DNA from: Streptantibioticus rubrisoli
GTDB lineage: Bacteria; Actinomycetota; Actinomycetes; Streptomycetales; Streptomycetaceae
DNA length: 64,000 nucleotides
Direction of reading: 5' to 3'
Assembly: GCF_024436055.1 (NCBI RefSeq)
Contig: NZ_JANFNH010000007.1
Span: forward strand, 62,001 to 126,000
A program made the position numbers and the translations under genes. Under the pieces are notes generated by a model. It saw only the letters and a program-made list of their open reading frames with translations. It was not told the origin of the DNA and searched no databases. This document shows positions 8,370 through 64,000 of the stretch, in pieces (the stretch's first letter is position 1; the number at the start of each line of letters is the position of its first letter).

Positions 8370-8689
8370 TCAGTGCCCGCGGGGGGCCTCCAGGCCGACC
8401 ACGGCGACGACCAGCAGACAGACGAAGAAGACCCGGGCGGCGGTGACCGGCTCGTGGAACAGCATCATGCCCAGCACCGCAGTGCCCACCGCGCCGATGC
8501 CCACCCACATCCCGTAGGCGGTGCCGATCGGCAGTTGCGCACCGCGAGCGCGAGCAACGCCATACTCGCCGCGATCCCGGCCACCGTGCCCAGGCTCGGC
8601 CACAGCCGGGTGAACCCCTCGCTGAACTTCATGCCGACCGACCAGGCGATCTCCAGCAGACCGGCGAGGAACCACAGGACCCAGGCCAT
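8370..8689 (-). pseudogene. SMR-family guanidinium exporter (SugE/Gdx-type), frameshifted
   Basis: The two halves of a four-helix small multidrug resistance protein lie in different frames. The first reads MAWVLWFLAGLLEIAWSVG...ALLALAVR from the ATG at 8689. The second continues LPIGTAYGMWVGIGAVG... to the stop at 8370. The join is at about 8534-8537, where one base is missing after the LALAVR codons. The catalytic Glu in LLEIAW and the Gdx-type KFSEGFTRLWPS block are intact. A 22-bp direct repeat (8346-8367, 8369-8390) duplicates the end of the gene. This is either a real 1-bp deletion or a sequencing error. Confidence 0.8.
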
Positions 8690-8723
8690 GACGGCACCTC
8701 CGTGGTGGATGTCGCTACGGGGT

Positions 8724-8764
8724 GCGTCGTCTTTGCGGGTCCCGGTACGGCGCGTCTCGTCGGG
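8724..8764 (-). promoter_or_regulatory. Guanidine-III riboswitch-like element
   Basis: On the minus strand this 41-nt stretch closely resembles the Thermobifida fusca guanidine-III aptamer as I remember it. A CCCG/CGGG stem encloses ACGAGACGCGCCGTAC, followed by a purine-rich linker and AAAGACGACGC. The GCGCCGT loop and ACGACGC tail can form the expected pseudoknot with one C-A mismatch. It sits 35 nt upstream of a SugE-type start with GGAGG between them, which is exactly where this class occurs. Confidence 0.7.
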
Positions 8765-8801
8765 TACCGCCGACCGTAACAAAGGCACGATGAAAGCGAC
8801 G

Positions 8802-8833
8802 AAGCGGGCGGTGACCGGGATCACCGCCCGCTT
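8802..8833 (-). terminator. Hairpin downstream of the GroES-like gene
   Basis: A perfect 13-bp stem (AAGCGGGCGGTGA / TCACCGCCCGCTT) with a 6-nt loop begins 17 nt after the stop of the minus-strand gene. It is followed on that strand by a modest T-rich run. It separates the gene from the riboswitch-SugE unit. Confidence 0.75.
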
Positions 8834-8849
8834 CCCGCGGAAACCGCGG

Positions 8850-9224
8850 TTACAGATACAGGCCCGTGGAGTCCTCCGAGCCCTGGAGCCGCTCGGCGGC
8901 CACCGCGTGCAGGTCCCGCTCGCGCATCAGCACGTACCCGACACCGCGCACCTCGACCTCCGCGCGGTCCTCCGGGTCGAACAGCACCCGGTCACCGACC
9001 TCCACGGTCCGTACGTTCTGCCCGACCGCGACCACCTCGGCCCAGGCCAGCCGACGGCCCACCGCCGCCGTCGCCGGAATGAGGATGCCGCCGGACGAGC
9101 GGCGCTCGCCCTCCGAGATGTCGGTGCGTACCAGCACCCGGTCGTGCAGCATGCGGATGGGCAGCTTGTCGTGCGTACGCGCGTGCTGCGCGCCGCCACC
9201 GTCGAGGGACGTATTCGAGCTCAC
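8850..9224 (-). CDS. GroES-family (Cpn10-like) protein
   Basis: A 124-aa protein with a co-chaperonin fold signature: the start strand PIRMLHDRVLVRTD, a mobile-loop region ERRSSGGILIPATA, and GDRVLFDPEDRAEVEV. It is longer than GroES (about 97-100 aa) because of an N-terminal extension, and no groEL lies beside it. The GTG at 9224 is chosen because it begins the well-composed region; no clear Shine-Dalgarno is seen. It is a divergent paralogue rather than the main GroES; its client is unknown. Confidence 0.75.
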   Translation of the reverse strand: MSSNTSLDGGGAQHARTHDKLPIRMLHDRVLVRTDISEGERRSSGGILIPATAAVGRRLAWAEVVAVGQNVRTVEVGDRVLFDPEDRAEVEVRGVGYVLMRERDLHAVAAERLQGSEDSTGLYL

Positions 9225-9313: not shown

Positions 9314-9667
9314 CTACTTCCGCTTGCCCCTGCCCCTGCCCCTGCCCCTGCCCCTGCCCTTGGCCGACCGCCCGGCCACCACCACGGCCAGCCCCACCAC
9401 GACGACCGCCGCGGGCACGATGCGCTCCATCCGCGGTGCGCCGTCCGAGGCGAACAACTCGCCGCGCACACTGGTCACCGCCCGGTTCAACGCCACGTAC
9501 GCGCGCCCGGCGGTGCGGTCCACCGTCTGTCGCACCGAAGCCGACGCGTTGCCGACGATGGTCCTGGGGTGCACCCGCACCCCGATCTCGTCCAGCGTCA
9601 CGGCGAGCTCCTGCCGCCTGCGGACGATGTCCGCCTCGATCTGAGCGGGAGTCCTGCCCTCCGACAC
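9314..9667 (-). CDS. DUF3618 membrane protein with Gly-Arg tail
   Basis: A 117-aa protein. The DUF3618 motif RTPAQIEADIVRRRQELAVT at the N-terminus is followed by one membrane helix (IVPAAVVVVGLAVVVAG) and a C-terminal run of alternating Gly and Arg ending GKRK. GTG at 9667 has GGAGG about 8 nt upstream. The tail is encoded by a hexanucleotide tandem repeat (9325-9360). Family function is unknown. Confidence 0.82.
   Translation of the reverse strand: MSEGRTPAQIEADIVRRRQELAVTLDEIGVRVHPRTIVGNASASVRQTVDRTAGRAYVALNRAVTSVRGELFASDGAPRMERIVPAAVVVVGLAVVVAGRSAKGRGRGRGRGRGKRK
9325..9360. repeat. Hexanucleotide tandem repeat (TGCCCC)n
   Basis: Five perfect TGCCCC units and one TGCCCT unit lie inside the DUF3618 gene and encode its (Gly-Arg) tail. 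In-frame slippage would change tail length without a frameshift. Confidence 0.9.
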
Positions 9668-63849: not shown

Positions 63850-63859
63850 ATCGCCTTCG

Positions 63860-64000
63860 TGGAGATGGCGGGAATCGAACCCGCGTCCTACGGTGCAGAA
63901 CCAGGGCTTCTCCGAGCGCAGTCTGCTGTGCTTTTCTCGGCCCCGGCAGTCACGCAGACAAGCTGCCGACGGGCTCAGCCACTGTTTGGTTTCCCACTAG
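63860..64000 (-). ncRNA. ssrA: tmRNA, 3' part
   Basis: The minus strand reads ACGCGGGTTCGATTCCCGCCATCTCCA at its end: T-arm and 3' acceptor half of the tRNA-like domain, with encoded discriminator A but not CCA. The preceding 110 nt match the pseudoknot region of actinobacterial tmRNA. The tag-peptide frame and 5' end lie beyond the window. Confidence 0.93.

Follow-up and report, generated by a model that had tools for sequence, protein, structure and literature searches.

The guanidine-II (mini-ykkC, RF01068) and guanidine-I (RF00442) riboswitches bind the same ligand as the guanidine-III class and precede similar genes, with folds that differ from it. Within the guanidine-III class (ykkC-III, RF01763) the closest described system is the ykkC aptamer of T. 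fusca (PDB 5NWQ), which lies before a gene for an SMR exporter. In Huang et al. 2017 (PMC5696562) this 41-nt RNA, crystallised without a 5′ hairpin, is described as having a helix P1 between positions 1–4 and 21–24 (the pseudoknot helix) and a helix P2 between 12–18 and 35–41. According to the same paper, C6, G7 and G17 contact the ligand and a third strand follows the P2 major groove, G9 lying on C16–G37, G10 on C15–G38 and U11 on G14–C39.

The window considered here, that is the whole stretch of 64,000 nucleotides from Streptantibioticus rubrisoli that was analysed, had received an initial annotation from its letters alone, in which a guanidine-III-like riboswitch was placed at 8724–8764 ahead of a SugE-type start and the Rfam guanidine-III model was named as the check. 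Run on the window, that model (RF01763) matches the minus strand at 8791–8721 with 42.0 bits over a cut-off of 36, and both the class and the position are thus confirmed, as is the SugE/Gdx-type ATG downstream, preceded by GGAGG. The E value of the match is 2.2e-5 when the entire window is searched with every Rfam family, and 6.0e-7 at the scale of the whole 7.26-Mb genome, where it is the sole match to the model at E ≤ 0.001. RF01068 has no match in the same genome, and RF00442 has one below its cut-off only (46.3 of 63 bits, G000:C16:357991-358121, minus strand), which could be a further ykkC-superfamily member.

The core of the window aptamer is 41 nt long, as is the crystallised T. fusca aptamer, such that the T. 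fusca numbering transfers to it one to one (Table 1). The two share the H-type pseudoknot of P1 and P2, the core and the ligand contacts. Indeed, bases 5–9 (ACGAG), 16–21 (CGUACC) and 29 together with 32–37 (AAGACG) agree with the conserved core, C6, G7 and G17 are present at 8759, 8758 and 8748, and the aptamer is, like that of T. fusca, upstream of an exporter gene, in this case gdx/SugE for guanidine export, which matches PF00893 in two frames. Judged by the aptamer features that were tested, the 5′ hairpin of the Rfam model excepted, the element is a genuine member of the guanidine-III class. Positions 30–31 read CA in the window and, as we take it, AC in T. fusca. The remaining differences lie in and around the third strand, where T. 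fusca has G10, C15–G38 and U11 (PMC5696562) and the window A10, C15–A38 and C11.

Table 1. Features of the guanidine-III locus, in window coordinates (position numbers within the aptamer follow the T. fusca RNA).
Feature	Coordinates	Strand	Evidence
Guanidine-III aptamer core, 41 nt, positions 1–41	8764 down to 8724	minus	Rfam RF01763, 42.0 bits; compared with 206 further aptamers
P1 5′ strand CCCG, positions 1–4, one half of the pseudoknot helix	8761..8764	minus	Perfect pairing with 8744–8741
P1 3′ strand CGGG, positions 21–24	8741..8744	minus	P1 paired in 47/47 haplotypes
P2 5′ strand GCGCCGU, positions 12–18, with C15 at 8750	8747..8753	minus	Rfam match; sequence
P2 3′ strand ACGACGC, positions 35–41, with A38 at 8727; also in the predicted helix covering the ribosome-binding site	8724..8730	minus	
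A10, third-strand base of the 10/15–38 triplet layer (G10 in T. fusca)	8755	minus	Layer from PMC5696562
Promoter −10-like TACGGT, 8 nt before P1	8773..8778	minus	Conservation of TAnnnT
Stretch that Rfam aligns to the 5′ hairpin; probably promoter DNA without an actual hairpin	8765..8791	minus	One non-standard pair
Strong hairpin lying between the riboswitch and the groES-like gene upstream of it, where the upstream transcript perhaps ends	8801..8834	minus	Inverted repeat
Shine–Dalgarno sequence GGAGG of gdx	8697..8701	minus	Sequence; present in most relatives listed
gdx/SugE N-terminal part, first frame, start ATG 8689–8687	8534..8689	minus	PF00893 positions 1–52
gdx/SugE C-terminal part, other frame, open reading frame to 8370	8370..8537	minus	PF00893 positions 52–93 at 8537–8412

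A C–A mismatch had been noted at the outset and assigned to the pseudoknot. The mismatch does exist, its assigned place does not stand: C1C2C3G4 pairs with C21G22G23G24 by Watson–Crick pairs throughout, and the C–A is formed by C15 opposite A38, the fourth pair of P2, the other six of the seven P2 pairs being standard. The Rfam model does not flag 15–38 as a bad pair, and a shift in the register of P2 that would avoid the apposition was rejected on inspection, as the 5′ strand has no free U for A38. Moreover, the initial annotation would have been refuted by a pseudoknot unable to form in related species, and this is not so, P1 being paired in 47/47 core haplotypes and in 128/128 C–A aptamers (the search pattern dictates C21 but leaves the other seven bases to vary). 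P1 covaries, with pair 3–22 occurring as G–C, C–G or U–A and in 0/47 haplotypes unpaired. In T. fusca, presumably, the P1 letters at 3–22 also differ from those of the window, both partners having been swapped with compensation. One further C–A/A10 aptamer (L233, genome G469), ahead of an SMR-like start, has a compensated P1 of CTGG with CCAG, in which pair 2–23 is a new U–A.

At its 5′ end the locus departs from the Rfam model, which has a hairpin where the window has promoter-like sequence and one non-standard pair in the aligned stretch. In aptamers of the window's form the folding energy of this stretch shows no excess over shuffled sequence (−3.84 versus −3.69), whereas in the other forms it does (−9.39 versus −5.88). 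The hairpin lies outside the crystallised 41-nt aptamer, and so was not counted as defining the class. A TAnnnT motif stands 6–13 nt before P1 in 105/108 aptamers of the window's form as against 8/99 others, its frequency in shuffled sequence being 19% over a wider stretch; a scan for the sigma-70 consensus found no promoter here. From the conserved −10 element, the transcript probably starts at or just before the 5′ end of the aptamer. In this regard, a review (PMC12186494) describes folding of guanidine-III as also shielding the mRNA from scanning by RNase E, and such protection would fit an aptamer at the extreme 5′ end. Further upstream, the hairpin at 8801–8834 was seen as an inverted repeat through sub-threshold matches to miRNA look-alikes; it was not reported by the terminator scan, which found no terminator-like site. 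The Rfam near-matches at 8793–8900 (two miRNA families, Ms1, rpfG and P17) are far below their cut-offs, largely reflect this hairpin and were set aside.

How the aptamer may act on gdx can be sketched from the class mechanism in the literature and from predicted folds. In the absence of guanidine, a helix is predicted in which the 3′ strand of P2 and the bases that follow it cover the ribosome-binding site and the start region. When guanidine is bound, P1, P2 and the third strand in the major groove would, as in the class mechanism, close around the ligand, and this closure would remove the P2 3′ strand from the ribosome-binding site and thereby allow translation. The pseudoknot-free minimum free energy fold of the window has positions 34–37 and 40–48 paired with the Shine–Dalgarno sequence and start region, A38 and C39 being bulged. 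Across 108 C–A loci, of any P1 type, the duplex between the P2 3′ strand and the Shine–Dalgarno region has an average energy of −15.9 kcal/mol, as against −11.1 kcal/mol with shuffled Shine–Dalgarno regions. Only in 44/106 loci does the P2 3′ strand find its best partner in this region, and on average 7% of other stretches are equally good. When P2 is imposed in a pseudoknot-free calculation, the Shine–Dalgarno sequence of the window is still mostly paired, with an unpaired probability of 0.03–0.24 per base. Translational ON control is likely by analogy, mainly on the strength of the class literature, the calculations pointing weakly to release of the Shine–Dalgarno sequence.

Relatives of the locus were gathered in two ways. 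RF01763 searches gave a match in 3/3 genomes of the window's genus, in 352/394 genomes of its family (127/150 in a second sample from the same genomes) and in 51/396 of the phylum; a scan with the gdx protein contributed named genomes, the best 80 of at least 487 relatives. A search of a plasmid collection (23 records) gave distant matches only. The aptamers were then read with a regular expression for the core, which fixes several bases, such that pairs 17–36 and 18–35 are paired by construction. Applied to 223/227 loci, it missed 16 and, after removal of one spurious match (L078), left 207 aptamers, 5 of which are exact repeats of another locus. C15–A38 is present in 128/207 (78 from the gdx scan, 50 from the aptamer searches). 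By eye, a further six of the missed loci (L088, L114, L189, L190, L210 and L219) have C–A with A10, L174 has C–A with G10, L168–L170 have A–A at 15–38 with G10, while the last six fall into other or degenerate forms. The sequences counted are related, and the counts are to be read as non-independent events.

With a wider pattern, the mismatch is found in 80/80 named Streptomyces loci, where gdx runs uninterrupted over 100–110 aa in every case, these loci having been picked through a full-length gdx protein as the best 80 of at least 487. In the largest genus of the family (g2, presumably Streptomyces) it is found in 28/31 genomes that match RF01763, and 27 of these 28 have the window's CCCG form. 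The other three (G481, G496 and G499) have other aptamer forms; G10 with C15–G38 occurs in some genomes of this genus, for example at L042 and L045. The two congeners (G001 and G002) have C15–A38 in an aptamer that equals the window's save for loop positions, ahead of an intact gdx of 106 aa. By sequence comparison, then, C15–A38 is the usual, though not universal, form among Streptomyces relatives. In all, gdx is intact in 106/108 loci of the window's aptamer form, including L080 with an open reading frame of 107 aa; among the 30 of these found by aptamer rather than by gdx, it is intact in 28 and broken in two, the window and L178 (genome G404, of another genus), where the same aptamer form precedes a gdx broken across three frames.

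That the downstream gene is broken in the window, as the initial annotation had proposed, is borne out by the PF00893 match, which falls into two pieces in different frames, the reading frame being split at 8534–8537. In Streptomyces sp. RPT161 (L068), which has the same aptamer form, the same Shine–Dalgarno sequence and a groES-like gene upstream, gdx is intact, whereas that of the window is split between frames. The intact congener protein has SugE as its best NCBIfam match (117.2 bits, just under the cut-off of 126). The dN/dS of the window gdx against the two congeners is 0.35 and 0.50, and that of the intact congener pair 0.37; for the separate gdx parts the estimates are noisy, with a range of 0.31 to 0.78 in the window. 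Both parts seem, from these substitutions, to have evolved as coding sequence until recently. The pattern resembles that of the intact congeners and, therefore, the break is either recent or an assembly error, and is unrelated to the mismatch. Two additional SMR genes are present in the genome, of which the first is most similar to EmrE and the second to SugE; at neither did the genome search give an RF01763 match.

The initial annotation had offered two readings of the mismatch, decay shared with the gene or a tolerated variant. For the riboswitch and gdx to be degenerating together, with the C–A as part of the process, speak the broken gene of the window genome and the second broken case in another genus. 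We regard this as highly improbable, since the mismatch accompanies an intact gdx in all the named loci and in both congeners, the window aptamer differs from theirs in loop positions only, and gdx is broken in only two of the 30 aptamer-selected loci. The same mismatch beside intact genes means that it precedes the break and is independent of it; the reading as a tolerated variant is, by contrast, supported by both congeners, the named loci and the g2 genomes. As to the break itself, it may be no more than an error of sequencing or assembly, the gene being intact in the organism. The genome is a draft of 103 contigs, one small length difference would suffice, and both parts of gdx have a coding-like substitution pattern. 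Against this stand 41 coding-like neighbours without another clear break, and we consider an error alone quite possible while leaning mildly against it. These neighbours come from a comparison of open reading frames of congener G002 with the window, in which a filter on codon-position GC left 53, 43 had a match and 41 were compared, gdx lying outside the 41; one of the 41 looked split, over a weak N-terminal stretch of 72% identity. Further frameshifts suggested by a first comparison were dismissed, the four inspected having proved to be matches in the wrong frame or at gene ends within GC-rich DNA.

A tolerated mismatch could still be a neutral one, C15–A38 being borne uncompensated and A10 being a founder change that hitch-hiked with it. 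A10 replaces G10 at the layer of 15–38 in the T. fusca RNA, and hence the mismatch and the third-strand change share one layer. A10 is present in 125/128 C15–A38 aptamers (121/124 with exact repeats removed), the three others (L182, L187 and L194) having G10. In the converse direction, an A as first third-strand base always occurs with A38 (127/127 aptamers read by the regular expression, 125 with C–A and two with U15–A38). Where the third strand has at least two bases and there is no C–A, 38/38 aptamers have G, C or T at position 10, and where the third strand is one base shorter, pair 15–38 is standard in 41/41. Among 29 unique haplotypes with a third strand of at least two bases, the counts of 6/0 versus 3/20 give a Fisher P of 1.8e-4, a value that ignores relatedness. 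Neutrality is opposed by the A that never occurs without A38 and by the standard pair beside every shorter third strand. It is favoured by the C–A with G10 in three of the 128 aptamers and in L174, four overall, by other mismatches in P2 (pair 13–40 is unpaired in 13/47 haplotypes, and 15–38 is A–A in L168–L170), and by the origin of most C–A aptamers in one bacterial family. On the other side, the C–A/A10 form occurs in two further families of the phylum (f16 and f42) as well as the window's own, and precedes, in addition to gdx, genes for an MBL-fold hydrolase (PF00753), a putative small multidrug exporter (PF06695) and a CBU_0592-family membrane protein; with several gene types and families, it is not one gene copy counted repeatedly. 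A neutral origin is thus a possibility that we treat with rather more doubt than credence. The counts suggest an exchange of G10/G38 for A10/A38 within one base-triple layer, and our reading of them is that A10 requires A38, whereas A38 prefers A10 without strictly needing it. The C15–A38 apposition with A10 appears to replace the C15–G38/G10 layer and to be maintained.

The other gene contexts have features of their own. C–A/A10 aptamers stand directly before a gene for an MBL-fold hydrolase in several genera of the family (L180, L192, L196, L201, L203, L205–L208 and L211), the assignment to PF00753 having been made by Pfam on L180 alone and by a similar N-terminus at the others; P2 looks two pairs longer in these aptamers, and the hydrolase is a possible guanidine-linked gene. 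Guanidine-III aptamers precede the putative small multidrug exporter at L013, L031 and L150 (PF06695, tested on L013) and an 83–86 aa membrane protein of the CBU_0592 family at L060, L066, L187 and L194 (tested on L060). Elsewhere in the window, tandem CCCCTG repeats at 9325–9360 encode a Gly-Arg repeat near the C-terminus of a minus-strand open reading frame (9314–9667), and the 3′ part of a tmRNA gene lies on the minus strand at 63857–64000, cut by the window end.

The overall picture, which we hold with considerable confidence, is of a guanidine-III riboswitch of the usual Streptomyces form, controlling a gdx guanidinium exporter, with C15–A38/A10 as a lineage layer and with gdx recently broken, or misassembled, independently of it. 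The earlier reading of decay is in this way corrected, the mismatch belonging to the usual Streptomyces aptamer. A literature search, which did not take in the main biochemical paper on the class (Sherlock and Breaker 2017), found nothing on a 15–38 mismatch or a 10/15–38 triple layer in guanidine-III. In everything but the A10/A38 layer, the locus is an ordinary example of an established riboswitch class. Actinobacterial aptamers may have two interchangeable versions of this layer, G10 with C15–G38 (or U15–G38) and A10 with C15–A38, the latter perhaps a protonated A+–C wobble; the A10 version would predominate in Streptomyces and stand ahead of several types of gene, and it may give the aptamer a pH-dependent affinity for its ligand, a proposal that we hold tentatively, the balance falling only just on the side of doubt. 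The triplet layer seemingly changes as a unit, and covariation of the secondary structure alone would score it as a plain mismatch.
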